A DNA stretch of 64,000 nt from positions 124,001 through 188,000 of the forward strand of contig NZ_CP083242.1 in assembly GCF_022836935.1 (NCBI RefSeq). The letters run 5' to 3'. Position numbers and translations under genes: made by a program. Positions 5,479 to 55,316 of the stretch are shown piece after piece (the first letter of the stretch is position 1; every line of letters begins with the position of its first letter). The notes beneath the pieces were generated by a model. That model did no database searches. It had not been told where the DNA came from and saw nothing but the letters and a program-made list of their open reading frames with translations. The stretch is from Ancylobacter polymorphus (GTDB lineage Bacteria; Pseudomonadota; Alphaproteobacteria; Rhizobiales; Xanthobacteraceae).

Positions 5479-6702
5479 ATGACAGAGCTAACACAAATTG
5501 ACCCAAGTCATCGCACCGGAAAAAAGGTGCGCTCGTTGACTCGGTTGATCGAGTCGGACGCCGACTTGCTCAGTGCGCAGCTGAAGGAGCTGCGAACTCG
5601 CGCCTTCCCTCCCGCGGCTCAAAAGGAGCTGCGCAAATTCACGTCGGGTGAAGCCGCCAAGCTGGTTGGCGTCACCGACGCATACATTCGTCAATTGTCG
5701 ATCTCCGGTGACGTTCCGGAAACTGAAAAGAATGCGCGCGGGCGCCGCTTGTTTACGCTCGAACAGATTCACGAGGTCCGGCGAACGCTCGCCCGCTCGA
5801 AGCCGACATATCTGCCGACACGTCGCAAGGGCGATCATCTCCAGGTGATTGCTGTCACCAACTTCAAGGGCGGGTCAGGCAAAACAACCACTGCCGCACA
5901 TGTCGCGCAGTACTTCGCAATGCGTGGGTTCCGCACTCTCGCCATCGACCTAGACCCCCAGGCTTCGTTGTCGGCGCTTTTCGGATTGCAGCCGGAATTC
6001 GACCTACAAGAGAACGACACCCTTTACGGCGCGATCCGCTACGACGATCAGCAACGCCCGATGAGCGACGTTATCCGGACGACCTACTTCGCCGGTCTCG
6101 ATATCGTTCCCGGCAATCTGGAGCTTCAGGAATTTGAGCACGACACGCCACGTGTACTCGCCGAGGGCCGCCGTAGCTCCGACCGAATGTTTTTCTCCCG
6201 CATCGCTACGGCGTTAGCTTCGGTAGAAGATCGGTATGACGTTGTAATACTCGACTGCCCGCCCTCGCTCGGCTTTCTTACGCTCTCGGCGCTCTGCGCC
6301 GCGAGGAGCGTGCTCGTCACCATTCATCCGCAAATGCTAGACGTCGCGTCGATGTCCCAGTTCTTGCACATGACCTCCAGCCTCCTTGACGTTGTCGAGA
6401 AGGCCGGGGGGGACGCTGACTACGACTTCTTCCGGTACGCGATCACGCGATACGAGCCTTCCGACGGGCCACAGGGCCAAATCGTCGGCCTGATGCGAAG
6501 CTTGTTTGGCGAGCGTGTCCTTACGACCCCGATCCTTAAGTCGACTGCGATTGCAGACGCCGGGCTGACGAAGCAGACCCTTTACGAGATCGGCCGCGAG
6601 AATTTTACCCGCAGCACCTACGACCGGGCGATCGAGGCGCTCGATACTGTCCATGCCGAAATTGAGAGCCTTGTCCTTGAGGCTTGGGGGAGGGCGACGT
6701 GA
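5479..6702 (+). CDS. repA: RepA, plasmid partitioning ATPase
   Basis: This 407-residue protein is the ParA-type ATPase of a repABC operon. An N-terminal helix-turn-helix (GEAAKLVGVTDAYIRQLSISG, residues about 57-77) would bind operator DNA. A deviant Walker A motif, NFKGGSGKTT, lies at about 128-137, followed by DLDPQASLSALFG and VVILDCPPSLGF as the later nucleotide-binding motifs. With RepB it partitions the plasmid, and with RepB it usually represses the operon. It overlaps repB by four bases. The length is typical of RepA. Confidence 0.95.
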   Translation: MTELTQIDPSHRTGKKVRSLTRLIESDADLLSAQLKELRTRAFPPAAQKELRKFTSGEAAKLVGVTDAYIRQLSISGDVPETEKNARGRRLFTLEQIHEVRRTLARSKPTYLPTRRKGDHLQVIAVTNFKGGSGKTTTAAHVAQYFAMRGFRTLAIDLDPQASLSALFGLQPEFDLQENDTLYGAIRYDDQQRPMSDVIRTTYFAGLDIVPGNLELQEFEHDTPRVLAEGRRSSDRMFFSRIATALASVEDRYDVVILDCPPSLGFLTLSALCAARSVLVTIHPQMLDVASMSQFLHMTSSLLDVVEKAGGDADYDFFRYAITRYEPSDGPQGQIVGLMRSLFGERVLTTPILKSTAIADAGLTKQTLYEIGRENFTRSTYDRAIEALDTVHAEIESLVLEAWGRAT

Positions 6703-7685
6703 ACAAGCGCCGCGACCAACTGAAGGCCATGATGGCGCCGATCACCGCGCCAACCGCCCCGAGCGAAGATCGGCCGACGCGCCCGCCGGTGTCATCCGGT
6801 TCGCTTAAAGCGATGGGTCTCTCGCTGAAGAGCCTGTCCGACGATGCGGACGAGGCCCAGGCGCTACGGGCGCAACTCGCATCGGGCGCCCAAGTTGTCG
6901 AGATCGATCCGAATCTCGTCGATCCCGCATTCATACGCGATCGCCTTAATGTCAGCGATGGAGACGAGTTCGAGGCGTTCAAGGCTGGACTGTCGGAGGA
7001 TGGGCAACAAGTTCCGATCCTCGTGCGTCCGCGAATCGATGCTCCCGGACGCTACCAGGCCGCATATGGACATCGCCGGGTCGCAGCCCTTCGTGCCCTC
7101 GGTCGGCCCGTTAAGGCGATTGTGCGCGAGCTTAGCGACGAAGAGTTGGTCGTCGCTCAAGGCAAAGAGAATACAGATCGCAAGGATCTCTCGTTCATCG
7201 AGCGCGCGCTGTTCGCGGCCAGACTTGAGGATCGTGGCATTGCACGTGCGGCAATCATGTCAGCGCTCTCGGTGCCAAAGGGAAATCTGTCGACGATGAT
7301 TTCTCTTGTCAGAGAGCTTCCCGAAGACCTCATCATCGCTATTGGCGCGGCCCCGAAGGTCGGGCGCCCCCGTTGGGAGCAGTTGGCGACGCTGGTGAAG
7401 CACGGCGATACAAAATGGCGTGACGTGGTTTCCGATGCAAATTTTCAGGCTGGCCCGAGCGATGCCCGCTTCGAGCGAGTGTTGAAGGCCTTGGTTCGCC
7501 GTCCGAAGAAGCCGGCGACGCATATCGTCAAATCTGACGATGGAAAGCAGGTTGCGCGCATCGAGCGCGCCAAGGATCAAACCCGCCTCACGATCGACAA
7601 TCGTCACGCACCCGACTTCGGAGCGTATCTCGTCGATCAGCTGCCCGAGATCTATGCGGCATTCAAGCGCCGCGCAGATGCGTAA
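6699..7685 (+). CDS. repB: RepB, parS-binding partition protein
   Basis: This ParB-family protein of 328 residues should bind the two parS palindromes. The start chosen is the GTG at 6699, overlapping the repA stop as GTGA, because it gives the usual RepB opening (NKRRDQLKAMM). The ParB domain contains GRYQAAYGHRRVAALRALG and GKENTDRKDLSFIERA, the conserved boxes I and II of the family. A helix-turn-helix follows around ALSVPKGNLSTMISLV. It is the second gene of the operon. Confidence 0.94.
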   Translation: MNKRRDQLKAMMAPITAPTAPSEDRPTRPPVSSGSLKAMGLSLKSLSDDADEAQALRAQLASGAQVVEIDPNLVDPAFIRDRLNVSDGDEFEAFKAGLSEDGQQVPILVRPRIDAPGRYQAAYGHRRVAALRALGRPVKAIVRELSDEELVVAQGKENTDRKDLSFIERALFAARLEDRGIARAAIMSALSVPKGNLSTMISLVRELPEDLIIAIGAAPKVGRPRWEQLATLVKHGDTKWRDVVSDANFQAGPSDARFERVLKALVRRPKKPATHIVKSDDGKQVARIERAKDQTRLTIDNRHAPDFGAYLVDQLPEIYAAFKRRADA

Positions 7686-7876
7686 ACCGCGTACCCTGAC
7701 AACACGAGAGGAACCGTAGGCAAAGAAAAAGGCCCCCGAAACGTCACCGTCCCGGAAGCCTCTGTCTTAGTTTGGCGACTGATAGAGAATCACTTCCGCG
7801 AATCGCAGTCAAGTCTCTCGTGAGAGACGGCGCCGTTTCGGCGAGCAGATTTCCTTTGCCCGCATGAGGGCAAGAC
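7686..7876 (-). ncRNA. Counter-transcribed antisense RNA region between repB and repC
   Basis: repABC operons carry a small antisense RNA in the repB-repC gap that limits RepC synthesis. Here the minus strand ends in a stem of AGGCTTCCGGGA against TTTCGGGGGCCT (about 7730-7761, with G-U pairs), followed by TTTTTCTTT. That is a good intrinsic terminator for such an RNA. The RNA start was not located. The role is inferred from position, the terminator, and a parallel structure before the second repC. Confidence 0.65.
7722..7761 (-). terminator. Terminator of the repABC antisense RNA
   Basis: Read on the minus strand, a G/C-rich stem-loop ends in GGCC and runs into TTTTTCTTTGC. No minus-strand gene is upstream, which fits a small RNA rather than an mRNA. 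Confidence 0.65.
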
Positions 7877-9109
7877 ATGGAACCACACACACCGACGACG
7901 CCCTTTGGGCGGCGGTCGCTGACGCTCGCCCATGTGGCAACGCAGATCGCCGCAGCGTCGCGGCCGCCCGAGAAGGTCGTACACAAGTGGAAGATATTCC
8001 AGGCGATCTGCCGGGCGCGGCCGAGTCTCGGCGTGACGGAGCGCGCGCTTTCGGTGCTGAATGCGCTTCTCACGTTCCACCCCGAGACCGCGTTGACGGG
8101 CGAGGACGACCTCGTCGTCTTCCCGTCGAACCAACACCTGTCGCTTCGCGCGCACGGCATGCCGGCGTCTACGCTGCGACGCCATCTCGCCGTCCTGGTC
8201 GACGCTGGACTGATCGTCCGCCGGGACAGTCCCAACGGCAAGCGCTACGCGCGCAAGGGTGCATCGGGCGACATCGAGCTGGCCTTCGGCTTCGACCTCT
8301 CGCCGCTCGTGGTCCGCTCAGAGGAGTTCGAGAGCCTGGCCGCGGCCGTGGAGGCTGAAGCCCGCGCCATCAAGCTCGCACGCGAGCGCATCACACTGTG
8401 CCGACGCGACATCGCCAAGATGATCGCGACGGGCATAGAGGAAGGCGTCCCGACACGCATGGGAGGGCAGGGGCCTGCGGACTGGGCCCAGGTCCACGCC
8501 GGCTTTCGCTCGATCGTCGAGGGGATTCCGCGCACCGCGACGCGCGCGCAGCTGGAAACGGCCGCTGAGGAGCTGTCGCAATTGGCTGACGACGTCCACA
8601 ACTTGCTGGAAATCCACGTCAAAACACAAGATATGAGCGCCAATGAGTCCCGAAATGAGCGCCATATACAGAATTCAAATCCAGACCCCTTAATTGATCT
8701 TGAACCTGGCTTTCGAGGAAGCCGGGCGGCGAGGGCGGTGCCAGATCCTGAAATGCCGAGGGTTGCGGAGACGGCCTATCCGCTTGGACTGGTGATGAAA
8801 GCCTGTCCCGACATCGCCGACTACGCCAAGGGCGGAATTTCGAGCTGGCGAGACCTGCTGGCGACGGTGGCGGTGGTGCGGTCGATGCTCGGGATCAGCC
8901 CCAGCGCCTGGGAGGAGGCGCAAGCCGTGATGGGCGAAATGCAGGCGGCCGTGGTTGTCGCGTGCATCCTGCAGCGCGGCGCGGCCATTCGATCGGCCGG
9001 CGGCTATTTGCGTGGCCTGACCGAGAAGGCGCGGGCCGGGGAGTTCTCGCTCGGGCCGATCCTGATGTCGCAGATCAACGCGCAACTGCGCACCAAACGA
9101 TCGGCGTGA
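7877..9109 (+). CDS. repC: RepC, replication initiator (repABC copy)
   Basis: This 410-residue protein is the initiator of the repABC replicon. The N-terminal half has the winged-helix RepC signature, including HLSLRAHGMPASTLRRHLA and GLIVRRDSPNGKRYAR (residues about 92-135). The second half includes ISPSAWEEAQAVMGEMQ and a GGYLRGLTEKARAGEFSLGP tail that recurs in the paralogue at 11.2 kb. In characterised repABC plasmids oriV lies inside repC; an A+T-rich segment here could be that site. Expression would be controlled by the antisense RNA upstream. Confidence 0.94.
   Translation: MEPHTPTTPFGRRSLTLAHVATQIAAASRPPEKVVHKWKIFQAICRARPSLGVTERALSVLNALLTFHPETALTGEDDLVVFPSNQHLSLRAHGMPASTLRRHLAVLVDAGLIVRRDSPNGKRYARKGASGDIELAFGFDLSPLVVRSEEFESLAAAVEAEARAIKLARERITLCRRDIAKMIATGIEEGVPTRMGGQGPADWAQVHAGFRSIVEGIPRTATRAQLETAAEELSQLADDVHNLLEIHVKTQDMSANESRNERHIQNSNPDPLIDLEPGFRGSRAARAVPDPEMPRVAETAYPLGLVMKACPDIADYAKGGISSWRDLLATVAVVRSMLGISPSAWEEAQAVMGEMQAAVVVACILQRGAAIRSAGGYLRGLTEKARAGEFSLGPILMSQINAQLRTKRSA
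8617..8707. other. oriV: Candidate oriV, A+T-rich segment inside repC
   Basis: This part of repC is clearly A+T-rich against a G/C-rich gene and carries ATGAGCGCCA twice, at 8633-8642 and 8655-8664. For well-studied repABC plasmids the origin has been mapped to an A+T-rich stretch in the central part of repC, so this is the natural candidate. It is an inference from composition and known location. Confidence 0.5.
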
Positions 9110-10517: not shown

Positions 10518-10531
10518 CACCACACCTCTGT

Positions 10532-10559
10532 GTCAAAGTCTAGAATATTGGACATTGAC
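10532..10559. promoter_or_regulatory. Palindromic operator upstream of HTH regulator 1
   Basis: GTCAA and TTGAC flank GTC and GGAC around a TAGAATATT centre, a 28-base imperfect palindrome fifteen bases before the start codon. It resembles, more weakly, the AT-rich box seen at five other places in the window. Confidence 0.55.
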
Positions 10560-10589
10560 CAAGCGAATTTCTTGTTGAGGCGACTCGAC

Positions 10590-10957: not shown

Positions 10958-10980
10958 GTCTAACATTCAATATAATAGAC
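10958..10980. promoter_or_regulatory. AT-rich box A (shared operator)
   Basis: A 23-base element begins GTCTAAC and ends ATATAATAGAC, with GTCTA/TAGAC as inverted ends. Box B, upstream of parA, differs at only three positions. Read on the other strand it fits the shared core ATTATATTAGATGTTA seen at four other sites. It lies upstream of HTH regulator 2. Confidence 0.65.
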
Positions 10981-11150: not shown

Positions 11151-11196
11151 GCCACGGTCTTTGTTTGCCACGCGCTCTCGCGAAGAGAGGACGCGA

Positions 11197-12408
11197 ATGC
11201 AGATGCCTGGCCTCAATCCAACCGCCCCCTTCGGGCCGCGGCCGTTGTCCGCGACTGCGCTGCGCGCGCAGCGAGACGTCACGCTGTGCGCCGGCAAGGC
11301 TGCACACAAGTGGAGGATGTTCCGCCACGTCTGCGAGGCGAGGGCGGAGCTCCGGCTCTCCGACCGATCGCTCACGGTGCTGAATGCACTGCTGAGCTTC
11401 CACCCGGACACGGTTCTCACGCTCGGGTCGGACGACCTTGTGGTTTTCCCCTCGAACCGGGAGCTCTCGGTGCGGGCGCACGGCATTCCCGCCTCGACAC
11501 TTCGCAGACACATTGCTGCCCTGGTCGACGTCGGGCTCATCCTTCGCCGCGACAGCCCCAACGGAAAGCGCTACGTGAGGCGCGCGCCGGGCGGCGGCAT
11601 CGAGCAGGCTTTCGGGTTCGACCTCAGCCCGCTCGTGGCGAGCGCGGACGAGCTGGCTGGCCGAGCCGCCCGTACCATTGAAGAGCGCCGGGCAGTGGAC
11701 GCGCTCCGCGAGCAGATTACGCTTGCCCGCCGCGACATCGCGAAGATGCTGTCGTTCGGCGTCGAGCAGCACGTCGACGCCGGCCTTCCGGCGCTTCACC
11801 GCGAGTACAGGGAACTGCTCGACAGCCGGCCGCGGGCCGCGCGCAGAGAGACGCTGGAGCCGCTCGCTGCCGCGTTGGCCGAGCTATCGAAACGGATCCT
11901 CCACATTCTGGAGAATCAGATCGAGGACGCGCCCCCTCGCGACGCGACCGGCGAAACGGAATGCCCGGCATCCGAAGGCAGCTACGGCGCCGGCGAGCCC
12001 CGTCAAGCCGAACCGAAGGGCGACGCTGCGCTCCCCGTCCCGGTGCGGCTGGTCGCCGAGAGGTGCCCCGACTTCGTCGACTACGCGCGCGAGGGTCTGC
12101 GCACGGCGCGCGACGTTACCGACACCGCGGCGATCGTGCGCCCGTTGCTCGGCGTCAGCCCGAGCGCTTGGGAGGAAACCTGCGTTGCAATGGGGCCTGG
12201 CCTGGCGAGCGTCACGCTCGCCCTTATCCTGCAACGCGGCAGCGCAATCAGGAACCCCGGCGGCTACCTGAGGACGTTGGCGCGACGTGCCTCGGCCGGC
12301 CAGTTCTCCGTGTGGCCCATGCTGATGGCGCTCGGCGCCACGCAGCGCCAAAAGTCCCCCGCTGCGCGCACCCCACCCACCCCTTCCTTCCCGGACGAAG
12401 GTGCATAG
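11197..12408 (+). CDS. repC: Second RepC-family replication initiator
   Basis: This 403-residue paralogue of the RepC at 7.9 kb is colinear along its whole length. It shares SVRAHGIPASTLRRHIA, GLILRRDSPNGKRYVRR, GVSPSAWEETCVAMG and a GGYLRTLARRASAGQFSVWP tail. I start it at the ATG giving MQMPGLNPTAPFG, since its PFG motif aligns with the start of the first RepC. It has no repA or repB directly upstream but has its own antisense-RNA terminator and a ParA-type pair downstream. The central segment that is A+T-rich in the first copy is G/C-rich here, so its origin may lie elsewhere. Confidence 0.9.
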   Translation: MQMPGLNPTAPFGPRPLSATALRAQRDVTLCAGKAAHKWRMFRHVCEARAELRLSDRSLTVLNALLSFHPDTVLTLGSDDLVVFPSNRELSVRAHGIPASTLRRHIAALVDVGLILRRDSPNGKRYVRRAPGGGIEQAFGFDLSPLVASADELAGRAARTIEERRAVDALREQITLARRDIAKMLSFGVEQHVDAGLPALHREYRELLDSRPRAARRETLEPLAAALAELSKRILHILENQIEDAPPRDATGETECPASEGSYGAGEPRQAEPKGDAALPVPVRLVAERCPDFVDYAREGLRTARDVTDTAAIVRPLLGVSPSAWEETCVAMGPGLASVTLALILQRGSAIRNPGGYLRTLARRASAGQFSVWPMLMALGATQRQKSPAARTPPTPSFPDEGA

Positions 12409-12449: not shown

Positions 12450-12878
12450 CTATTGCCCGTCGACGGGCGGCAAACGTCCGAGCCGTTTCAAGAGGTCGTG
12501 GATTGCGCGGTCGACAATGCGCAAAGGCTGCGTGCGCTCCTCGGCGGCGAGCTGGCGAAGCGCGAGGTCAATGGCGTCGGGCAGGCGTAGCGCGTAGGGC
12601 CGCGACGACGCGCGCTCGCCATAGGCCTCGAACGGATTGCGATTGCGGTCGCGCGGCGACCGTGGCGCTTTCTTCGGCTGGTCGGGCTCGCCCGTCTCCG
12701 ACGACAACCTCCTTTGCGCAGGCGGCGCCGGCGTGACCGGGTCATGATAGGCCGGGGTGACGACGACGGGCTGTAGCGGGGGCCTCTGTCCTGGCGGCGT
12801 GCCGACGCGTTGAGCGCGGAACGCGTCGCGGGGCAGGGGAGGCCGATCCGGCTTCTCACTCGGCGCGCCGTCGCTCAT
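12450..12878 (-). CDS. ParA partner, probable centromere-binding protein
   Basis: This 142-residue protein is translated right after parA, with ATGA coupling. The N-terminal two thirds are Pro/Arg-rich and look disordered. The C-terminal part (ALRLPDAIDLALRQLAAEER onward) looks like a short ribbon-helix-helix or helical domain. Small ParA partners of type Ib systems, such as ParG, combine a flexible tail with such a fold. The call rests on gene order and layout, not on a recognised domain. Confidence 0.55.
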   Translation of the reverse strand: MSDGAPSEKPDRPPLPRDAFRAQRVGTPPGQRPPLQPVVVTPAYHDPVTPAPPAQRRLSSETGEPDQPKKAPRSPRDRNRNPFEAYGERASSRPYALRLPDAIDLALRQLAAEERTQPLRIVDRAIHDLLKRLGRLPPVDGQ

Positions 12879-13573
12879 GCTGCGGTGTCATCCGCGGAGC
12901 CTTGGCTCGCGGCGAGCAGCTCGCGCACGACCTGGTCGGCGTTGTAGCGCGCCTTGCGCACGGACTCGTCCTTGTCGCTCATCTGGTAGAGCGTGCCGAA
13001 GCCGCTGGTCATCGTGCGGAAGGTCACGCGACGGTAGAGCGCCGTCGCGCACACCGGGACATGCTCGGAATCGAAGTAGCCGACGACCTCGCGCAGGGGG
13101 CGCGTGTTGCGGTCGAGGCTGTCGTACTCGTTGAACAGCACGCGGTGCTGACTCATCGGCAGCTGCGCGGTGGCGGCGTGCTGCTCGAGGTTGCGGATCG
13201 TCCGTACGACCTGAGACGCGTCGAAAGTGTGGACCTTGCAGGGCAGCACGACGAGGTCGGCGCGCAACGCCGCCTGGACTAGGACCTCGCCATAGTAACC
13301 GGGCGTGTCGATGACGACGACGTCGTAGCCGGCGAGCCGCTCGACAGCCTGGGCCAACGCCGCCTCGTCAGGTGCGCGGACGAGGTCGACCCCCTGAGGG
13401 CTCAGCCCGCGCGCGACGGACGACGCGTGCCACTGGTAGGAGGACCCCTGCGGGTCGGCGTCGACGATCGCGGCGGAGTAGCCGTGTTTGGCGAACTCGC
13501 CGGCGAGAATGATCGCGACCGTGGTCTTACCACTGCCGCCCTTTGGGTTAGCCACTGCGAAAACGCTTGGCAC
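12875..13573 (-). CDS. parA: ParA/MinD-type partition ATPase of the second replicon
   Basis: This small ParA of 232 residues has no N-terminal HTH. Starting at the GTG at 13573, behind AGGAGG, gives the standard opening PSVFAVANPKGGSGKTTVA with the deviant Walker A at residues 9-17. DADPQGSSYQW and VVVIDTPGYYGEVLV follow as the switch motifs. It is paired with a small partner gene. Box B lies 31-53 bases upstream of the start, and a repeat array behind that may be its centromere. It is a type Ib-like partition system, independent of repAB. Confidence 0.88.
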   Translation of the reverse strand: MPSVFAVANPKGGSGKTTVAIILAGEFAKHGYSAAIVDADPQGSSYQWHASSVARGLSPQGVDLVRAPDEAALAQAVERLAGYDVVVIDTPGYYGEVLVQAALRADLVVLPCKVHTFDASQVVRTIRNLEQHAATAQLPMSQHRVLFNEYDSLDRNTRPLREVVGYFDSEHVPVCATALYRRVTFRTMTSGFGTLYQMSDKDESVRKARYNADQVVRELLAASQGSADDTAA

Positions 13574-13603
13574 GCCCACCTCCTGCTTCTCGTGGAATCG
13601 CTC

Positions 13604-13626
13604 GTCTAACATACGATATAATAGAC
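13604..13626. promoter_or_regulatory. AT-rich box B (shared operator) upstream of parA
   Basis: This 23-base element begins GTCTAAC and ends ATATAATAGAC, matching box A except at three central bases. It is placed where the parA promoter should be, so the factor that binds box A probably also controls this partition operon. Confidence 0.65.
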
Positions 13627-13860
13627 ATTCGGCAATACCGCAGTCCGTCACTCCGGAAGTGCGTGACTGCTGTGTTGCGGTGGTCACGCGTTGCGGTGCT
13701 CGGGCAATGCGTCATTGCGGTATTTCGGCAATATGTGAAGGCGGCAATGCGCGGATACAACAGCACGCTTTTATGGCATTCCGGTATTGGCGGTGTCGTT
13801 CATTGAGGTATTGCCGCATTAGTGGACTTCGTCATTGCTGACTTGCGGTGAGATTATCCG
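13627..13860. repeat. Degenerate repeat array, candidate centromere or iterons
   Basis: The stretch contains about eight imperfect copies of an RTTGCGGTR-like word in both orientations (for example near 13636, 13674, 13690, 13714, 13741, 13788, 13811 and 13851), often with GTCAYT or GTGACT next to it. There is no coding gene. A repeat cluster directly upstream of a small ParA operon is the usual place for a type Ib centromere; an initiator-binding array for repC2 is the alternative. The unit spacing is irregular. Confidence 0.55.
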
Positions 13861-13929
13861 GAAGATCCGTGTCGGGAGATGGGCTGGCTTCCCTGGTCGT
13901 GAACGCCCTTCTTTGGGAGAAGTCTGACA

Positions 13930-13954
13930 GTCGATTTATTAGATGTTAGTTGAC
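13930..13954. promoter_or_regulatory. AT-rich box E (shared operator) upstream of the mob genes
   Basis: GTCGATTTATTAGATGTTAG continues to GTTGAC, giving GTC/GAC ends about 25 bases apart. Its TTATTAGATGTTA core matches boxes C and D near the secretion genes. It lies 110 bases before the mobC-like start. Confidence 0.62.
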
Positions 13955-13962
13955 AAGATACC

Positions 13963-14004
13963 GGTTTGTGGGCCAAACCCGGGGACGACTGCTGAACGCA
14001 GTCG
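13963..14004. other. oriT: Candidate oriT with two hairpins
   Basis: Two inverted repeats sit just upstream of the mobilization genes: GGTTTG/CAAACC (13963-13979) and CGACTGC/GCAGTCG with a TGAAC loop (13986-14004). Origins of transfer usually lie next to the relaxase genes and carry such repeats beside the nick site. No known nick sequence was recognised. Confidence 0.45.
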
Positions 14005-14063: not shown

Positions 14064-14489
14064 ATGGCCCGCTCCGCCACAGCACCGCGACGCAAGCCGA
14101 GGCTTCGAACGGAGTTGTCGGAGGCCGACGAGGCGCGGCTGCAGGCGGCCGTGGCGCTATTCGGCGTGCCGAAGGCCGAGGTGGTGCGGCGCCTGATCCG
14201 CGCGTCCGTGCACGCCGGGCCGGCGTTGTCGGCCGAGAACACGCGCGCCGTCGTCGAGCTCGCCCAGCAGGTCCGGATGGTCGGCCGCAACCTCTCGCAG
14301 GTCCTGCGCGCGATCCACCGCGGCCAAGCGGTGCGCATCGAGGACACCGAGCCGGTGTGGCGCGGCCTGCACGAGGTGGTTGCCGCCATCAACGACGAAT
14401 TGACCGAGATGACCGTGGCCTACGGTTCGAAATTGCGCCGGCAGGCCGGGCTTCCGCTGCCATCCGAGATCCCGACCGAGGAGGCGTGA
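14064..14489 (+). CDS. MobC-like relaxosome accessory protein
   Basis: This 141-residue protein has an N-terminal ribbon-helix-helix-like segment (LSEADEARLQAAVALFGVPKAEVVRRLIRASV) and a helical second half, ENTRAVVELAQQVRMVGRNLSQVLRAI. That is the pattern of MobC/TraJ-type accessory proteins, which bind oriT and help the relaxase. GGGGAG precedes the ATG. It overlaps the relaxase start as TGATG, so the two are co-translated. The RMVGRNLSQ motif is typical of MobC. Confidence 0.78.
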   Translation: MARSATAPRRKPRLRTELSEADEARLQAAVALFGVPKAEVVRRLIRASVHAGPALSAENTRAVVELAQQVRMVGRNLSQVLRAIHRGQAVRIEDTEPVWRGLHEVVAAINDELTEMTVAYGSKLRRQAGLPLPSEIPTEEA

Positions 14490-16807
14490 TGAACCGCGCA
14501 GCCCAGATCGCCTGGTGGGTCGCGCAGGTCGAGGCCGCACGGACAGCTGTCACCGCGGCCGCCGAGTCACGGCGCCGACCCCGAGCCTTTGGCGGCCTTG
14601 ACGACGAGCCGAGACGGCGGGCGGCGCGGGTTGCGCCGCTTCCCAAAGTGCCACCTGCAGACCAGGTCATCCGCGGGCATACAATCACCGGCGGTCGCGA
14701 CGAAGAGCGCTCGCGGTCGTTGCCACCGTCGTCGGCTGGGGGAGGTGGCGGTGGACCGCCCCCGGTTCGTCCTGCCGCGCGGGCGCCGATCCCCGGCGGC
14801 GCGGGCGGGGCAGGGCCGGGCGCCGTCGGCCGCGCGCGCCAGCTCGCCGCGGGCTACCAGCCTGCGGTCATCAAGGTGCTGTCCTGGGCGCACGGGACCG
14901 TCCGGGCCACCAAGACGGGGCAGTACGTGCAGCGCGAGGACGTGCCGCTCGAAACCCACGACGGCCGCATGTTGACGGACCGCGAGGCGGTCGCCGACGA
15001 GATCAAGGCGTGGTCGGTCAACTTCTCGAAGCGGGCCGAGAGCCAGGACGTCGCCGCAGTCCGCCTGATGCTGCGCGGCGTGAAGGATACTGAAGAGGGC
15101 CGCGAAACCTACGAGAAGGCGATCGCTGCCGGCTTCGCCGGGCACCGCTACGCGTACCGGCTCGACACGACGTCATCCGGCGACCTCGAGGCGCGCCTCG
15201 TCATCGCCTTGGCAGGGCCGGCGAAGGAGCGGTTCCGCGTCCGCGAGGAGCGGGTCGGAGACCACGAAAAGCAGTTCACCCGGAAGCGCTTCGACATGGC
15301 CTCGGAGGGAAAGATCGCGGATCGCATCCATGCCGCGACCGGGATTGGTACCCAGGCAATCGGCGTGTCGCCCGGAATGACCAACCACGGCCGCAACGGC
15401 GTGACCTATCGACTCAATAAGCTGGTCGAGCACGGCGCAGTGGTCGACGACAAGGGCAAGGCCATCGCCAACGTCGCCGACACACGGGTCGCGGCGCGCG
15501 AGTGGGGGCCGTCCCTTCGCTCGCAGTCGGTGCGCGACACGATGCACCTCATGCTGTCAGCGAAAGCGGGCACCAATGTCGAGGCCTTGAGACGGGCCGC
15601 GCGCGCCTTCCTGCAGGACCGCTTCGGTGACCACAAATTCATGTTCGGCATCCACGTCGATAAGGAGGCGGCCGGCCACATCCACGTCCACGCCGTGATC
15701 GCCGCGAAAGGCGAGTCCGGCCAGAAACTGCACCCGGGGCCAGAAACGTTCCGCGAATGGCGCACGGCATACGCCCAGCACGCCCAGGCGGAGGGGCTGC
15801 GCATCGTAGCAACCTCGGCGCGGGAGCGCGCGTCGTCGCAGAGCTACGGCCCGAAGGACAAGGCCATAGTCGAGACGGCGGAGCGGCCGCGAACCGCTCG
15901 CGAAGCAAGGGATCGCGCCTATGCCGCCGATCCGGCTAACCGGCGGTTGATCGACAATGCCCGGCAGCGGATCGCGACTGCGCGTGCAAATCCGATCAGC
16001 TTGCCGAAGTCGCCGCTGGCTCGCAAAGTTGTGAATGAAAGCGTGTTGGCCTGGCGAACGGTAGCGGCCGAACAGCCGGCCAATCCGATCGCCAAGGACA
16101 TGCTCGAACGTCTGTTGATGGCGCAGGCCATCGGGGGGATACTTCAAGCAATCGGACGTCGTGTCGAGCAGATCACAAAGGAAGATAGCGGCATGGCCAT
16201 TTCATCTGAACAGATGGCGAAGGACCTTCGCGTGATGAACGAGGCGGTCTCGCGAACGAGCGACCTTCTCGTGGGAGAGACCAAGCAGCAGTTCCGCGAG
16301 ACGTCTGCTCGCTATCTCGAAACTCTGGCCAACCGCATCGACCTTCAACGAGTCCAGGAGCGCGGCGTCGAACGACTCAGTCGCGGCGAGGTCGAGTCAA
16401 TCGTGGGAACGAATGCAGACCGGCTTATCGAGCGAGCCCAAGAAATCCGCCTTAAGGAAGAACGCGAGGCCGCATCCGCGGAACAAATCGCTGCTCGCGC
16501 GGTCAATGCCGAGCGGAGACAAGAGGCCGGTGTTGCGTTGGATGCGACATCGCAGCGTGAGCTGCGAGCCGAACGAAGCATTGTGGCCGGATCGCAGCAG
16601 GCCGCGTCAAGGGAGGCGCGGGAGGCCGCCGCCGCCGCCGAGGCTGCGCGAGCGATTACGGAACATCCCGGTCAGCCGATTCCCGCGGCGCTTGTGCAAA
16701 CGGATGCGCTTGCGAAGCTCCGCGCGGAGCAAGAACAAGTTATCCGGGAGATCGAAGCGAGCGAGCGGGCGACGGCACAATCAACGAAAGGTCAGCGTCT
16801 AGTCTAG
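14489..16807 (+). CDS. Relaxase / mobilization nuclease
   Basis: This 772-residue protein nicks oriT and leads the strand into the recipient. The histidine motif is GHIHVHAVIAAKG (residues about 396-408), preceded by MFGIHVDKEAAG, the metal-binding signature of the MobA/VirD2-like relaxase fold. The C-terminal third is Arg/Glu/Ala-rich and probably coiled-coil or a secretion signal. The open frame extends upstream into the mobC gene, but the overlapping ATG at 14489 is the sensible start. Together with VirD4 and VirB proteins at 43-56 kb it would make the plasmid self-transmissible. Its MOB class is not certain. Confidence 0.85.
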   Translation: MNRAAQIAWWVAQVEAARTAVTAAAESRRRPRAFGGLDDEPRRRAARVAPLPKVPPADQVIRGHTITGGRDEERSRSLPPSSAGGGGGGPPPVRPAARAPIPGGAGGAGPGAVGRARQLAAGYQPAVIKVLSWAHGTVRATKTGQYVQREDVPLETHDGRMLTDREAVADEIKAWSVNFSKRAESQDVAAVRLMLRGVKDTEEGRETYEKAIAAGFAGHRYAYRLDTTSSGDLEARLVIALAGPAKERFRVREERVGDHEKQFTRKRFDMASEGKIADRIHAATGIGTQAIGVSPGMTNHGRNGVTYRLNKLVEHGAVVDDKGKAIANVADTRVAAREWGPSLRSQSVRDTMHLMLSAKAGTNVEALRRAARAFLQDRFGDHKFMFGIHVDKEAAGHIHVHAVIAAKGESGQKLHPGPETFREWRTAYAQHAQAEGLRIVATSARERASSQSYGPKDKAIVETAERPRTAREARDRAYAADPANRRLIDNARQRIATARANPISLPKSPLARKVVNESVLAWRTVAAEQPANPIAKDMLERLLMAQAIGGILQAIGRRVEQITKEDSGMAISSEQMAKDLRVMNEAVSRTSDLLVGETKQQFRETSARYLETLANRIDLQRVQERGVERLSRGEVESIVGTNADRLIERAQEIRLKEEREAASAEQIAARAVNAERRQEAGVALDATSQRELRAERSIVAGSQQAASREAREAAAAAEAARAITEHPGQPIPAALVQTDALAKLRAEQEQVIREIEASERATAQSTKGQRLV

Positions 16808-17485: not shown

Positions 17486-17890
17486 ATGACCACTTCTAAG
17501 AAGAGCGCCGCCGCGGGCGCGCTCGCAGTTGCACTCTGCGTGGCAGGCCTCTCGACGGCGCAAGCAGAGGTCACGGACTACGAATTCCAGCTCCTTCAGA
17601 CCGACGTCAAGCAGGGCAACGCGGCCATCGTCGATGTCCGCCTCGTCGACAAGCGAACCGGTTCATCAGTCGCCGACGCCGTCATCTTTGCAACCCGGAT
17701 CGACATGGCGCCAGACGGCATGGAAACGATGACAGCGCCGATCGAGGTTCTCCCCTCGACGGAGCCGGGAGTCTATCGTTTCAAGGCCAACCTGGTGATG
17801 GCCGGCGGATGGCGCCTTTCGCTCGGAGCGAAGATACAAGGTGAAACCGGCACGCTCGAAAGCAAGCTGGTCCTGAAGGCGACGCCGTGA
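17486..17890 (+). CDS. Periplasmic FixH/YtkA-like protein, cassette 1
   Basis: This 134-residue protein has a signal peptide (to about TAQAEV) and an Ig-like beta domain: QTDVKQGNAAIVDVRLVDK, then VADAVIFATRIDMAPDGM and PGVYRFKANLVMAGGWRLSL. This is the FixH/YtkA-like pattern, often encoded beside metal-efflux RND genes. The RIDMAPDGMETM segment is Met-rich, suggesting metal contact. It overlaps the adaptor gene as GTGA, so translation is coupled. Its precise role in efflux is unknown; a periplasmic metallochaperone or adaptor is plausible. Confidence 0.75.
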   Translation: MTTSKKSAAAGALAVALCVAGLSTAQAEVTDYEFQLLQTDVKQGNAAIVDVRLVDKRTGSSVADAVIFATRIDMAPDGMETMTAPIEVLPSTEPGVYRFKANLVMAGGWRLSLGAKIQGETGTLESKLVLKATP

Positions 17891-19296
17891 GACGGATCTC
17901 TCTGCGGGTCCTCGCCCTCGCCGCTGTTCTGGCGGCGGGGATCGGAGGTTATTGGGCTGGCGTCCGGGGCTTACCCGTGGCCGGCCTCCGCGAATGGCTT
18001 GGTCGCGAGGGAACCCTCGTAACGGCTCAGCCCGAGGCCACGGGGGCGATCATCTATTATCAGGATCCTGACGGCAGGCCGGCTTATTCGACGACGCCGC
18101 GCCAGACCCGAGACGGCCGGGCTTTTCGCGCCGTTCGTGCCAGCGAGGATGTGAGCTTCGAGGAAAGGCCGCCGGCGACGGCCGATGCCACCCCGCGGCG
18201 CATTCTCTACTACCGCAATCCGATGGGGCTGCCTGACACCTCGCCGACGCCGAAAAAGGATTCGATGGGGATGGATTACATCCCCGTTTACGAGGGGGAA
18301 GATGATGGTAGCCCCGTCGTGCGGGTGCCGCTTGGCAAGCTGCAGCGGACTGGTGTGCGATCCGAGTTGGCGACGCGGCGTCCTGTGGGCAGATCAATGC
18401 GCGTACCTGGAATGGTTCAGCTCGACGAACGGCGCATTTCCGTGGTCGCAACCCGGAGCGATGCCTTCATCAACGAGGTCGCGAGCGTCACGACCGGGGA
18501 TCGCGTGAAGAAAGGCCAGGTACTCCTCAGGCTCTATTCGCCAGACATTGCCGCCGCCGGCGCCCAGTTCCTCAGCGATCTTAATATCGGCGGTCGCGAC
18601 AGTGCTGCCGGCGGTGCCCGACAGCGCCTGGAAAATCTGGGTGTACCGCCAGAGGCGATCGCGGAGATCGAGAGCACACGCAAGGTGCCGCTCTCGATGA
18701 CGTGGCGCGCGCCGCGCGATGGCGTCGTGCTCGAACGCAATGTCGTCGACGGCATGAAGGCAGCGCCGGGCGACGTGCTATTCCGTCTCGCGGACATTTC
18801 GACCATCTGGGTACTGGCCGATGTGCCGGAGTTCGATCTTGAGGCCGTTCGGCTCGGTGCGCCCGTGGCGATCCACGTCCGAAGCCTACCGGGGCGCACC
18901 TTCGAAGGACGCGCTTCGCTGATTTATCCGCAGGTCGGTGAGGCGACCAGGGCAACGAGAGTGCGGATCGAGATCGCCAATCCCGGGGATGTTCTGCTCC
19001 CAAATATGTATGCGGAAGTGGAGATCGGCGCAGGCGATGCGGCGCCGGTGTTGGCGGTCCCCGAGAGTGCGGTGATCGATAGCGGCACGCGGCAGTTCGT
19101 TATCATTGATCGTGGAGAAGGGCAGTTCGAGCCGCGAAACGTGAAAATCGGCGCGCGGGGCGCGGGCTTCACCGAAATTCGCGAAGGGATTGCGGAGGGC
19201 GATCGTGTCGTGGTCGCTGCAAATTTCCTGATCGACGCCGAGAGCAATCTGAAGGCGGCGCTCCGCGGCCTGACTCCGCCGGAGCCACAACCATGA
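17887..19296 (+). CDS. cusB: CusB-like efflux RND periplasmic adaptor, cassette 1
   Basis: This 469-residue membrane-fusion protein has a GTG start and a membrane-anchoring N-terminus. A heavy-metal-binding-domain-like segment follows (LYYRNPMGLPDTSPTPKKDS, then MGMDYIPVYEGE, residues about 106-138). After it come the lipoyl/barrel region, with VATRSDAFINEVASVTTGDRV and SIWVLADVPEFDLEAVRLG, and a membrane-proximal domain (LLPNMYAEVEIG, GDRVVVAANFLIDAESNL). It would link the inner-membrane pump to an outer-membrane channel. It overlaps both neighbours by four bases. The paralogue at 24.5 kb is colinear and very similar. Confidence 0.9.
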   Translation: MRRISLRVLALAAVLAAGIGGYWAGVRGLPVAGLREWLGREGTLVTAQPEATGAIIYYQDPDGRPAYSTTPRQTRDGRAFRAVRASEDVSFEERPPATADATPRRILYYRNPMGLPDTSPTPKKDSMGMDYIPVYEGEDDGSPVVRVPLGKLQRTGVRSELATRRPVGRSMRVPGMVQLDERRISVVATRSDAFINEVASVTTGDRVKKGQVLLRLYSPDIAAAGAQFLSDLNIGGRDSAAGGARQRLENLGVPPEAIAEIESTRKVPLSMTWRAPRDGVVLERNVVDGMKAAPGDVLFRLADISTIWVLADVPEFDLEAVRLGAPVAIHVRSLPGRTFEGRASLIYPQVGEATRATRVRIEIANPGDVLLPNMYAEVEIGAGDAAPVLAVPESAVIDSGTRQFVIIDRGEGQFEPRNVKIGARGAGFTEIREGIAEGDRVVVAANFLIDAESNLKAALRGLTPPEPQP

Positions 19297-22200
19297 TGAT
19301 CGCTCGCTTCATCGACTGGTCGGCCCGCAATCTTGTGCTCGTCTTCGTCGGCACCATCTTCGCGGTCGCCGCCGGGCTCTACGCGCTTAAGACGCTCCCG
19401 CTCGACGCTATACCCGACCTCTCCGACGTGCAGGTGATCATCTATACGGATTATCCCGGCCAGGCGCCGCAGGTGGTCGAAGACCAAGTTACCTATCCGC
19501 TCACCACCTCGATGCTGACGGTACCAAGATCGAAGGTAGTGCGCGGTTTCTCCTTCTTCGGCGTCTCGTTCGTCTACGTCATATTCGAAGACGGCACCGA
19601 TCCCTATTGGGCGCGTTCGCGCGTGCTCGAATATCTCAACGCTGCCGGGCAGCGATTACCGACAGGGGTCACGCCGACCTTGGGGCCGGATGCAACTGGC
19701 GTTGGCTGGGTGTACCAATACGCGGTCGTCGCCAAGGAAATGACTCTTGCCGAGTTGCGCTCGCTGCAGGATTGGGTGATCCGCTTCGGCGCATCCAAGG
19801 CCGAGGGCGTTGCGGAGGTCGCCAGTGTTGGCGGGTTCGTGAAGCAATATTCGATCGTGGTTGATCCGAACCGGCTGCGGGCACTGGGTATTTCGCTCGA
19901 TCGAGTGCGCGAGGCGGTCAAGGCCAGCAACGCCGATGTTGGCGGCCGCACCGTCGAGCTATCCGAATTCGAGTTCATGGTGCGCGGTCGCGGCTATATC
20001 CGAAGTGTCGCGGACATTGAGAACGTTGTGCTGAAGACCGACGGGGGCGTGTCGCTACGGGTCAAAGATGTTGCGCGTGTCGAAATCGGGCCGGACGAAC
20101 GCCGCGGCATCACCGAACTCAACGGCGACGGTGAGGTCGCAAGCGGAATCGTGCTGCAACGGTTTGGTGCCAACGCGCTCACGGTGATCGAGAACGTCAA
20201 GATGCGGCTGGCTGAGATTGCGACTAGCCTGCCCAAGGGCGCCGAAATTGTCCCGGTCTACGACAGGTCTGAACTGATCGACCGGGCGATCGAGACGCTG
20301 AAAGGGACGCTGATCGAGGAGAGCGTGATCGTTGCGCTAGTCTGCGTGGTGTTCCTGCTGCATCTGCGGAGCGCGCTCGTCGCCATCCTGATGCTCCCGG
20401 TCGGTATCCTGATCGCCTTTGCGGGGATGAGGTCGATAGGCCTCGGCTCGAACATCATGAGCTTAGGCGGCATCGCGATCGCCGTAGGCGCCATGATCGA
20501 CGCCGCCATCGTAATGATCGAGAACGCGCACAAGCATTTGGAACGTGCGCCACCGGCCAAGCCGCGCACCGAGATCCTCATAGAGGCGGCCAGTCAGGTC
20601 GGCCCGGCGCTTTTCTTCAGCCTGCTCGTCATTACCGTCTCTTTCCTGCCAATTTTTACGCTGGAGTCGCAGGAGGGTCGGATGTTCGGCCCGCTCGCCT
20701 TCACCAAGACCTTCTCAATGGCGGCCGCCGCGTTGCTGTCGGTGACGTTGGTGCCGGCGCTCATGGTGGTCTTCGTGCGCGGCCGGATCATCCCGGAGCA
20801 TCGGAACCCGATCAACCGCTTCTTGATTTGGGCCTACCGTCCAGTCATTCGTGGCGTCTTGAGGGCCAAGACGCTCACCCTCTTCGTCGCGCTCATTGCT
20901 CTCGGGGTGACAGTGTGGCCGGCGCGACAGATCGGCTCAGAGTTCATGCCGAATCTCGACGAGGGCACGTTAATGTACATGCCAACCACCTTGCCCGGCA
21001 TTTCCGTGACCAAGGCGGCGGAGCTTCTCCAGATGCAGGACCGCATCATCAAGAGCTTCCCGGAGGTGGCTTCCGTCTATGGCAAGGCGGGACGTGCCCT
21101 CACAGCGACCGATCCGGCGCCGACCGAGATGTTCGAGACCATCATCAATCTGAAGCCGAAGAGCGACTGGCGCCCGGGCGTCACCATCGACCGCCTGAGG
21201 GCCGAGATGGACAAGGCATTGCAGTTCCCGGGGGTCTCCAATGCCTGGACTATGCCGATCCGTGCTCGCATTGACATGCTTGCCACCGGCATCCGCACGC
21301 CCGTCGGTGTGAAGGTCTTTGGCACCGATCTCGGTCAGATGGAGCAGAGCGCTCGCGAAGTCGAGCGGGTGCTCCGCAGTGTATCAGGCACATCGAGCGC
21401 CTATGCCGAGCGGGTGATCGGCGGCTATTATCTCGACATTGTGCCAGATCGTGACGCGCTCGGCCGTTATGGCTTGTCGATCGGGGACATCCAGAGCGTG
21501 ATCGCGAGTGCGTTGGGCGCCGAGACGGTGACGACCACCGTCGAGGGGCGCGAGCGCTATGCCGTTACCATCCGCTATCCACGGGATTTCAGGAGCGACC
21601 CCCAGTCTATCGCGCGCGATGTGCAGGTGTCGTTGCCAACCGGCGGAATGGTGCCCCTCGGCGAGATCGCCAAGGTCAAGCTCACCCGCGGCGCGACATC
21701 GATCCGTACCGAGAACGGCCAACTTGCAGTCTACGTCTTCGTCGACATCGTCGGCCGCGATCTTGGCGGCTATGTCGCCGAGGCACAGCAGGCGGTCTCG
21801 AAAGAGATCAGACTCCCTGCCGGCACCTACCTTTCGTGGAGCGGCCAGTTTGAATATCTGCAACGCGCCGAAGCACGATTGAAGATTGTCGTCCCACTCA
21901 CGCTGCTCGTCATATTCCTGTTGCTCTATCTCAACTTCCGGGCGCTGACGGAAACGGTCATCGTCATGCTGTCGCTGCCGTTCGCGCTCGTCGGTGGCAT
22001 CTGGTTGATGTGGTGGCTCGGGTTCAATATGTCGGTGGCGGTGGCGGTCGGCTTTATCGCGCTTGCCGGCGTTGCCGCCGAGACTGGCGTCATAATGCTG
22101 ATTTATCTGGAGCAGGCCATGGCGGACCTGCGGGCGACTCGGGACGCAGAGGGACGGCCCTTTACCCGCGATGACGTCTACGAGGCGATAATGCTGGGTG

Positions 22201-22505
22201 CCGTGGAGCGGGTACGACCGAAGATGATGACGGTGATCGCGATTACGGCTGGCCTCGTCCCGATCTTGTGGAGCAACGGCACCGGCTCGGAGGTGATGCA
22301 GCGCATTGCTGTGCCGATGATCGGCGGCATGGTCTCCTCGACCGTCCTGACGCTGGTTGTGATCCCCGCTGTCTACGCACTGGTCAAATGCTGGCGGTTG
22401 CCGCGAACCAACGAGCCGCCGCATGAGCATAGAACCGGCCATCGGAGCCTCGATCCGACCAGTGTTCGAAAAAAGCTCAGCAATATCAACAAATTAGTTC
22501 CATAA
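19293..22505 (+). CDS. cusA: CusA-like copper/silver RND efflux pump, cassette 1
   Basis: This 1,070-residue RND transporter of the heavy-metal class opens SARNLVLVFVGTIFAVAAGL and has the usual twelve-helix, two-loop layout. Three methionines that form the copper/silver relay in E. coli CusA (573, 623, 672) have exact equivalents at M563 (YMPTTLPG), M613 (PTEMFET) and M662 (RIDMLATGI), with identical spacing. The transmembrane relay region GGIAIAVGAMIDAAIVMIEN is present. It would pump periplasmic or cytosolic Cu(I)/Ag(I) outward with the adaptor upstream. The C-terminal tail differs completely from that of the second copy. Confidence 0.93.
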   Translation: MMIARFIDWSARNLVLVFVGTIFAVAAGLYALKTLPLDAIPDLSDVQVIIYTDYPGQAPQVVEDQVTYPLTTSMLTVPRSKVVRGFSFFGVSFVYVIFEDGTDPYWARSRVLEYLNAAGQRLPTGVTPTLGPDATGVGWVYQYAVVAKEMTLAELRSLQDWVIRFGASKAEGVAEVASVGGFVKQYSIVVDPNRLRALGISLDRVREAVKASNADVGGRTVELSEFEFMVRGRGYIRSVADIENVVLKTDGGVSLRVKDVARVEIGPDERRGITELNGDGEVASGIVLQRFGANALTVIENVKMRLAEIATSLPKGAEIVPVYDRSELIDRAIETLKGTLIEESVIVALVCVVFLLHLRSALVAILMLPVGILIAFAGMRSIGLGSNIMSLGGIAIAVGAMIDAAIVMIENAHKHLERAPPAKPRTEILIEAASQVGPALFFSLLVITVSFLPIFTLESQEGRMFGPLAFTKTFSMAAAALLSVTLVPALMVVFVRGRIIPEHRNPINRFLIWAYRPVIRGVLRAKTLTLFVALIALGVTVWPARQIGSEFMPNLDEGTLMYMPTTLPGISVTKAAELLQMQDRIIKSFPEVASVYGKAGRALTATDPAPTEMFETIINLKPKSDWRPGVTIDRLRAEMDKALQFPGVSNAWTMPIRARIDMLATGIRTPVGVKVFGTDLGQMEQSAREVERVLRSVSGTSSAYAERVIGGYYLDIVPDRDALGRYGLSIGDIQSVIASALGAETVTTTVEGRERYAVTIRYPRDFRSDPQSIARDVQVSLPTGGMVPLGEIAKVKLTRGATSIRTENGQLAVYVFVDIVGRDLGGYVAEAQQAVSKEIRLPAGTYLSWSGQFEYLQRAEARLKIVVPLTLLVIFLLLYLNFRALTETVIVMLSLPFALVGGIWLMWWLGFNMSVAVAVGFIALAGVAAETGVIMLIYLEQAMADLRATRDAEGRPFTRDDVYEAIMLGAVERVRPKMMTVIAITAGLVPILWSNGTGSEVMQRIAVPMIGGMVSSTVLTLVVIPAVYALVKCWRLPRTNEPPHEHRTGHRSLDPTSVRKKLSNINKLVP

Positions 22506-22739
22506 TTAAGGTTCTGCGACTCACGATTTCGGCGCTCTGCAGGGGGCTTGGCGGATCTCCATAACGCCGGCGCCCCCGCCCGCTGCTCGCCACCTTTCAG
22601 CACCGCCGCAACGGCCTTCGCCGGTCCGCCTTCGCGCTCATCGCCTGATAAGGCTGGACTCTGATTTTGCAGTATATTAAACAGACTACAACCTGATTCA
22701 TACACATTGTAATCAGGCTACGATCTACAATCATACGAT
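22506..22739. other. Gap between cusA1 and mobile mystery protein A
   Basis: The first half is G/C-rich and non-coding. The second half is A+T-rich and holds the promoter and operator of the downstream HTH gene, including a 7-bp inverted repeat and several ATACGATATGA-like words. Confidence 0.5.
22691..22716. promoter_or_regulatory. Operator upstream of mobile mystery protein A
   Basis: CCTGATT and AATCAGG form a perfect inverted repeat with a 12-base spacer, 24 bases before the start of an HTH gene. It most likely mediates autoregulation. Confidence 0.55.
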
Positions 22740-23219
22740 ATGAAATCAGACCTTGATATGAAACCAGACATTCGGCAAAAGGCCAGACAGCGGCTCGACG
22801 AACGGCTGATGCCGCTCAAGCCGACCGATCGCTTTCAGGTGCCGCCCAAGGGCTGGATCAGGGCGATCCGTGAGGCTTTGGGCATGACGGGGGTGCAGTT
22901 CGCCCGGCGCCTCCATGTGAAGCCGCAGAGCATCGACGCGTTGGAGAAGTCCGAGGCCAATGGCGTGATCAAGATCGAGACGCTGCGCCGGGCGGCCGAG
23001 GCGTTGGATTGCACGCTTGTCTATGCCCTCGTGCCCAACAGCACGCTCGAGGAGGCGGTGCGGGTGCGCGCGCACAAGATCGCCCTGCGCGATCTCGGCC
23101 GGGTCGCGCATACCATGAGGCTGGAGGCGCAGGGCACGACAGACGCCGACCTGGAGGCGCGGATCGAGGCCTATGTCCGCGACACGCTGCGCGACCGTGA
23201 CCTCTGGGAGCAGCCATGA
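22740..23219 (+). CDS. Mobile mystery protein A (HTH protein)
   Basis: This 159-residue protein has a Cro/C1-type helix-turn-helix in MTGVQFARRLHVKPQSIDAL, residues about 49-68. Its opening ARQRLDERLMPLK and the LDCTLVYALVPNSTLEEAVR segment are typical of the family called mobile mystery protein A. That family is always paired with a Fic-domain partner (protein B) on mobile elements and behaves like the regulatory half of a toxin-antitoxin-type pair. Here its stop overlaps the start of protein B. It lies between the two copper cassettes. Confidence 0.85.
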   Translation: MKSDLDMKPDIRQKARQRLDERLMPLKPTDRFQVPPKGWIRAIREALGMTGVQFARRLHVKPQSIDALEKSEANGVIKIETLRRAAEALDCTLVYALVPNSTLEEAVRVRAHKIALRDLGRVAHTMRLEAQGTTDADLEARIEAYVRDTLRDRDLWEQP

Positions 23220-23368
23220 CGGACCTGTTCCAAGAGCCCGACGATGCGACGCCTCTGACGCCGGCGGAGCGCGAAGGGCTGCGGCAGGCCTGGATCACCC
23301 ATCGCCGCGATCTCAACGAAGCCGAGCAGGAGAACATCGTGCAGGGCGCGGACAATGTCTCACCGTAG
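23216..23368 (+). pseudogene. Mobile mystery protein B, truncated after about 46 codons
   Basis: The frame starts with ATGA overlap on protein A and gives MTDLFQEPDDATPLTPAERE, continuing to NIVQGAD. That is the conserved N-terminus of mobile mystery protein B, whose Fic (HPFxxGNGR) domain should follow. After QGAD it reads NVSP and stops; the Fic domain is missing. The break marks the left junction of the second copper cassette, suggesting a rearrangement that removed the catalytic part and left protein A alone. Confidence 0.75.
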
Positions 23369-23579
23369 AAAACTAGAAATGGCACACTCCCCCGGCTTCG
23401 AGCATGGGAGTCTGGTATGGGCTGGTGGAGATGAGCGAATGGCAGCTTCGTCGCTCTGAGGTGGTGCATGGGTTTTGCGCGCCAGCGGGCGCTGAACGAC
23501 CGCCGTCCGGCACCAATCTGTGACATTTGTGCCCCTTCGGCGTATTCTCATAGCCTGCCATCTGTGACACGTTACTGCT

Positions 23580-23939: not shown

Positions 23940-23969
23940 GACATCGCCGGCGTTCGCGCGCCGGCTCGT

Positions 23970-24018
23970 GCCGCCCCAGCAAGCTCGGGCGGCCGAGGGC
24001 GCGTGGCCATGGCCACGC
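23970..24018 (+). ncRNA. Structured leader RNA before efflux cassette 2
   Basis: The hairpins GCCGCCC/GGGCGGC (23970-23993) and GCGTGGCC/GGCCACGC with an AT loop (24001-24018) correspond to the pair in cassette 1. The second stem is longer here and its loop changed, while pairing is preserved. It lies between the Cys-rich gene and the FixH-like gene. Confidence 0.5.
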
Positions 24019-24068
24019 AACGCCGGGCCATGCGCACGGCGCTCCGACAATCCTGGGAATTTCAGACA

Positions 24069-47567: not shown

Positions 47568-47573
47568 GCGCGC

Positions 47574-50214: not shown

Positions 50215-50222
50215 CGGACTCC

Positions 50223-50608: not shown

Positions 50609-50682
50609 CAGGGCCCCCAAATGTTGTGTTGCGCCATCCCGGAGCTTTCACGAGACGCCTCAAAGGCGAGACGCCCCTTACC

Positions 50683-51393: not shown

Positions 51394-51404
51394 GAAAATC
51401 CTCC

Positions 51405-54700: not shown

Positions 54701-54707
54701 GATCGCC

Positions 54708-55303: not shown

Positions 55304-55316
55304 CAAGTTCTCCCTG

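Follow-up and report, generated by a model that had tools for sequence, protein, structure and literature searches.

A conserved box at transfer-region promoters of an Ancylobacter polymorphus plasmid and its relatives, and HTH1 as its likely reader

Introduction

Which protein reads an AT-rich box that recurs at several promoters of one plasmid, and which functions does the box bring together? The question arises from a 64-kb stretch (hereafter the window; 63% G+C) of a plasmid-type contig of Ancylobacter polymorphus. An initial annotation had listed five such boxes there, at promoters of partition, mobilization and secretion genes, and had taken them for a plasmid-wide regulon that ties stable inheritance to conjugation. 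In IncP plasmids, the global regulators TrbA, KorA and KorB coordinate transfer and maintenance genes through common operators. A search of titles and abstract openings found no literature on the regulon considered here.

Results

Organization of the window

The contig carries two RepC replication genes (Table 1). In the virB1-virD4 operon, part of whose genes were scanned, we recognized SLT, TrbC/VirB2, VirB4, TrbL/VirB6, CagX/VirB9, TrbI/VirB10, VirB11-type and TraG/VirD4 domains. The TrbM-like protein had no family match in the Pfam scan and keeps the name given in the initial annotation. The gene downstream of box E had been called accessory. Its box is indeed present, and tblastn relatives of the gene occupy the same position beside the virB region in all 14 relative stretches covering that place; its product has no Pfam match. 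The LuxI-type gene next to the boxed E operon has no box match with the relatives-only profile described below. In the nearest relative, L001, a LuxR gene comes after the relaxase, so transfer may be under quorum sensing as well.

Table 1. Features of the window (positions within the window; empty cell, not given).
Feature	Positions	Strand	Evidence and remarks
RepA, RepB, RepC	5479-9109		RepABC genes
RepC of RepABC	7877-9109		
HTH1, XRE-family regulator, 123 aa	10107-10478	-	XRE fold; near repC and an SSB gene
Sixth box, 59 nt from the HTH1 start	10538-10560	+	HTH1 gene on - strand
HTH2, second XRE-family protein, 97 aa	10590-10883	-	PF01381
Box A, upstream of HTH2	10958-10980	-	
Second repC	11161-12408		RepA/RepB absent beside this copy
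P4, ParA-partner protein	12450-12878	-	No Pfam match
Second ParA ATPase, GTG start	12875-13576	-	Distinct from the RepA partition protein
Box B, 27 nt upstream of parA	13604-13626	-	Spans likely -10 TATGTT, 16 bp from TTGCCG
Box C, upstream of mobC	13929-13951	+	2-nt overlap with putative oriT core
Putative oriT core TTGACAAGATACCGGTTTGTGGGCCAAACC, inverted repeat GGTTTG/CAAACC	13950-13979	+	Conservation
MobC-like relaxosome protein	14064-14489	+	tblastn relatives precede annotated relaxases; no Pfam match
Relaxase, MobA/VirD2-like	14486-16807	+	PF03432
Efflux cargo	17887-29118		HlyD/CusB-type fusion protein and two RND transporters, ~1070 aa
virB1-to-virD4 transfer-channel operon	43083-56015	-	SLT domain and VirB/VirD4 domains in scanned genes
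Box D 23-mer, divergent promoter of virB1 (-) and trbM-like operon (+)	56040-56062	+	
TrbM-like small protein, opening a + strand operon	56115-56603	+	Adjoins virB1 in 13/14 relative stretches
Box E, upstream of the operon that follows nuclease/SSB genes	58720-58742	+	
Conserved protein of unknown function downstream of box E	58789-59355	+	tblastn
LuxI-type autoinducer synthase	60821-61444	-	PF00765, 61.6 bits
Gene with sigma-70 region 2 and 4 domains	61741-62397	+	Perhaps an ECF sigma factor

Six boxes with an apparent dyad

All five boxes listed initially were recovered, within 3 nt of the positions first given, and a sixth box, missing from that list, was detected upstream of HTH1. The described likenesses also held: boxes A and B are near-identical 23-mers that differ at 2 of 23 positions and share the arms GTCTA/TAGAC, and ATTAGATGTT is exactly common to C, D and E. 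With up to 3 mismatches, the pattern ATTATATTAGATGTTA matched 5 times in the window, against 0.00 in 100 shuffles, and these five were its only matches in the whole genome (5,225,369 bases). The reversed control also gave 4 matches in the genome; therefore the notable feature is the clustering of all five boxes in one 64-kb stretch, and not their genome-wide number.

A profile was built from 102 distinct sites in relatives, to which neither the window nor the relatives nearest to it contributed. It scored the five window boxes at 36.8 (box A), 32.4, 31.9, 30.0 and 22.9 bits. The sixth box, which the five-site window profile had missed (8.9), reached 18.4 bits with the relatives-only profile, the best score in 40 Markov 64-kb windows being 17.6; it is the weakest of the six. 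With the same profile, no position from 1.8 to 10.5 kb reached 6 bits, and RepABC is thus unboxed.

Boxes A to E are oriented like the gene that each precedes, and D also faces virB1 on the other strand. The sixth box is oriented opposite to HTH1, unlike the other five. Overlapping copies, shifted by 7 bp, were detected on the opposite strand. At box D this copy (56033-56055) scored 27.6 bits with the relatives-only profile, the whole element spanning 56033-56062. Those starting at 13611, 13922, 10531 (10531-10553, a weaker copy of the sixth box) and 10965 scored 9.5-15.2 bits, under the best random score. With these second copies the candidate operator looks like a dyad, whose core resembles RTYYAAT-AT-ATTRRAY and is often followed by GTTAG.

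Relatives carry the box at the same promoters

Members of the plasmid family occur in Hyphomicrobiales such as Bosea, Bradyrhizobium, Nitrobacter, Afipia and Mesorhizobium. This alphaproteobacterial plasmid region also appears on a scaffold named Streptomyces sp. AcH 505 (L036), probably through contamination. We examined 15 plasmid records, corresponding to 15 of the 18 best similarity rows (H6, H13 and H15 were left out), together with virB/trbM regions of relative plasmids and 35 loci from species genomes. Scanning the 15 whole records with the box pattern returned 42 matches in 13 records, against 6 for the reversed control. Pairs of boxes about 2.7 kb apart, reproducing D and E, were present in 8 of the 15 records. 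Some matches sit in cargo regions; they are few and look like chance.

Promoters were then scored by clade of HTH1, clades I and II being described below. With the five-site window profile at a score of at least 12, a limit chosen after the scores were inspected, and with the window (training sites) included, a box was present in clade I rows upstream of HTH1 (39/42), HTH2 (24/24), parA (38/39) and mobC (37/37), at trbM/virB1 (12/12) and upstream of the E gene (10/13). For comparison, the highest scores in five random 64-kb windows were 10.3-14.0, whereas most of the promoter stretches that were searched had lengths of 60-300 bases. The fair count for HTH2 is 23/23, because the L060 row had been extracted wrongly and matched the HTH1 box. 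The single parA row without a box, L041, likewise gives no fair test, since its ParA is a distant one (46% over 41 aa). At the same limit, no box was detected upstream of repC (0/27), P4 (0/38) or the relaxase (0/36) in clade I rows, and the E gene lacked it in 3 of 13 clade I rows and in both clade II rows. Rows L022, L023, L013 and L068 (same records or copies) and L048 (near relative) were dropped from the counts, and L069 (26% identity), without a tblastn match, enters none of them. The motif scan proposed at the outset, over plasmid, relatives and genome, thus yields matches that cluster in the window and recur at the same promoters of relatives.

In 25 of the 38 boxed parA promoters, we observed the pattern TTG[CT]CN, 16 bp, TA[CT][AG]TT, picked after the alignment was seen, with the second hexamer inside the box. 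This position of the likely -10 hexamer suggests that a protein bound to the box at parA would block RNA polymerase.

A conserved putative oriT adjoins the mobC box

The 30-nt stretch that box C overlaps has 27-30/30 identical positions in all 43 loci examined, from both HTH1 clades, and we infer that it is the core of oriT. When sought in eight further plasmids with up to 3 mismatches, this core was not found. A related TTGACAAGATAC stretch precedes mobC in a third, more distant group of HTH1 loci. In the distant plasmids L080-L083, TTGACAAGATAC is kept and both repeat arms have changed together, from GGTTTG/CAAACC to AATTTG/CAAATT; this paired change supports the oriT reading.

HTH1 is the better candidate reader

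The initial annotation had proposed two helix-turn-helix proteins as readers, and the relatives favour one of them. All 15 relative plasmid records contain HTH1, a count helped by the choice of records through similarity to the HTH1-mobC stretch, and 6 of the 15 contain HTH2; of the nine plasmids without HTH2, seven still carry boxes. Thus, the likely reader is HTH1 and not HTH2. The two proteins resemble each other in the helix-turn-helix (30% over 44 aa).

The HTH1 model displays an XRE fold (pLDDT 77.4); its nearest structures include SinR and restriction controller proteins, and Foldseek indicated nothing more specific than this general fold. HTH1 has no match to the KorA or TrbA families; HTH2 scored 17.8 bits against the IncP TrbA family (NCBIfam PRK13890), below the cut-off of 96. 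The sources examined give this regulator general XRE/HTH names only. Two features of a global transfer-repressor regulon are found together here: one type of site common to several transfer promoters, and a plasmid-encoded regulator of DNA-binding type whose promoter carries that site.

In a divergent clade the box changes with HTH1

Clade II of HTH1 comprises six loci with 54-55% identity to HTH1 of the window. In the HTH1 tree it forms one side of a branch with support 100/100; this long branch arises within clade I. For the recognition helix, clade II has GKGTYYDVSRA, the clade I majority ARGTYYTMLRG and the window ARHTYYTMVRG. The clade I profile finds very little at clade II promoters (HTH1 1/6, parA 0/6, mobC 0/6, trbM 0/2). 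Another dyad, GTC[ACG][AG]TATN[ACT]NGAC, a pattern written from the very loci counted, is present there at mobC (6/6), parA (4/6) and trbM/virB1 (2/2). The other two parA promoters carry the variant GACCAATATACCGACT, and the site at the promoter of HTH1 itself corresponds to part of the dyad only. The clade II dyad gave 19 strand hits at 12 places, with all 8 clade II stretches being hit, against a null mean of 0.04; clade I loci and the window had none.

Beside these changed boxes, the putative oriT is 28-30/30 identical. The candidate reading segment of MobC, RLRTELS, is invariant between the clades, and the conserved segment of P4, SRPxALR[LF]P, shows one inter-clade change, Y95 to L. A changed helix and changed boxes, next to a fixed oriT and a fixed MobC segment, fit HTH1 better than MobC or HTH2 as the reader; the same contrast favours HTH1 over P4 less clearly. 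This co-change represents one evolutionary split, on a long branch, and the remaining backbone has diverged as well. Altogether, the plasmid-wide regulon initially proposed is well supported, by a box at the same promoters of relatives and by its changed form at these promoters in the divergent clade.

Five Mesorhizobium plasmids carry an orphan HTH1 with a weaker box at its own promoter, whose score (13.6-13.8) is no higher than that of the best random 64-kb window (14.0). In the stretch examined, these plasmids have no parA, P4 or mobC match; MobC at 35-50% identity is found elsewhere in four of the five. In the third HTH1 group (about 35% identity; pMLa, CB3171, Methylocystis), the HTH and mobC promoters have no recognizable box in common.

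The boxed ParA and its partner

The boxed parA product has its best NCBIfam match to the partition ParA NF041546, at 118.5 bits, below the cut-off of 180. Against VirC1 it scored 40.6 bits with PF07015, over the cut-off of 24, and 41.8 bits with the NCBIfam family, below the cut-off of 313. In the P4 model (pLDDT 65.8 overall), two helices follow the conserved segment, with values of 84-91 there, and no strand is formed by the strand-like segment in the monomer; the C-terminus may be a ribbon-helix-helix. With such a C-terminus, the ParA-P4 pairing would be like that of VirC1 and VirC2.

These observations bear on the tie between stable inheritance and conjugation. Its inheritance half is weak because RepABC is unboxed and the boxed ParA is the second one, beside the putative oriT; partition-transfer coupling as first worded is weakened on these grounds. 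ParA-P4 may position the plasmid for transfer, a role no less likely than partition.

Discussion

From the sequence comparisons, the box is probably the operator of HTH1; the predicted effect is repression of the HTH1 gene together with the DNA-processing and transfer-channel operons. An HTH1 dimer would sit on the dyad and cover the -10 region at parA, and probably elsewhere too. HTH2, the parA-P4, mobC-relaxase and virB1-virD4 operons, and the trbM-like and following operons would thereby be kept low, and through its own box HTH1 would hold its own level constant. In a new cell without HTH1, all boxed promoters would fire until HTH1 builds up. Repressors with negative feedback and a burst after transfer are described for plasmid R388 (PMC3937220), and by this analogy a burst of transfer genes would be expected in new hosts. 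Moreover, since the box abuts the putative oriT at mobC, bound HTH1 could, more speculatively, also hinder relaxosome assembly. A fuller version, in which HTH1 and HTH2 form a CI/Cro-like switch between resting and spreading on one set of operators, and the box fused to oriT also blocks DNA processing directly, seems unlikely.

Other readings of the box have to be weighed against HTH1. HTH2, acting alone or competing with HTH1 as in a CI/Cro pair, has the best box of all at its promoter and, given its resemblance to HTH1, could read the same site where it is present; the boxed plasmids that lack it make this reading quite unlikely. P4 and MobC, both possible ribbon-helix-helix proteins, could instead be the readers, as partition or relaxosome proteins that regulate their own genes. 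Both genes belong to boxed operons next to the putative oriT, both proteins are kept in the two clades, and P4 has two predicted helices after its strand-like segment and the Y95 to L change between clades whose boxes differ. However, the remainder of the P4 segment is nearly as constant as that of MobC between these clades, and the orphan HTH1 genes retain their weak box with no P4 or MobC match nearby. We therefore give this reading little credence.

The box might also be a mere AT-rich promoter element, such as a -10 region or the site of a special sigma factor, and not an operator. It does overlap likely -10 sequences in a G+C-rich window, which also contains a gene with sigma-70 domains. 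Yet the box has a dyad and is longer than a -10 element, clade II has another dyad in its place, and the regions upstream of repC do without it, all of which renders a promoter element highly improbable. HTH1 as a repressor acting at the box is thus the reading that we retain.

We consider the regulon, with its likely reader, to be real and conserved, and the kind of transfer repressor that it represents is already known elsewhere. With a candidate regulator and an operator code proposed for this family of conjugative plasmids, control of transfer becomes directly testable. The two versions of operator and regulator amount to a natural specificity swap. Since one box lies at the edge of the putative oriT, an unusual location, one may ask whether the repressor gates DNA processing as well as transcription. 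If the proposal is true, one small plasmid-encoded repressor would switch the spread of the plasmid as a unit.

Several known systems invite comparison. HTH1 differs from IncP TrbA in that it has no match to that family, and the HTH2 score also falls far from the TrbA cut-off. On NAH7, transfer genes and oriT are sites of action of the partition proteins ParB/ParR (PMC12421886). Repeated sites in the neighbourhood of partition and transfer genes occur both there and on the plasmids described here, but the NAH7 partition protein activates, whereas here an XRE protein is predicted to repress. TrbR of the Rhizobium leguminosarum plasmid pRleVF39b is an XRE-type transfer repressor whose mutation raises transfer (PMC7449395, PMC9601222, PMC8628070). 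HTH1 is set beside it by description, as another XRE-type candidate repressor of transfer of an alphaproteobacterial plasmid; the trbR gene lies between the Dtr and Mpf regions, whereas HTH1 lies by repC and an SSB gene. In R388, StbA links stability and transfer beside oriT (PMC3098194), and KorA, ArdK and StbA each control several promoters, as proposed here for HTH1, KorA acting on the T4SS promoters and its own (PMC3937220). R388 distributes this control over six repressors, whereas here one box spans the DNA-processing and channel operons. By analogy, the box family likely belongs to an autoregulated transfer-region repressor of the kind of R388 KorA, IncP TrbA and rhizobial TrbR.
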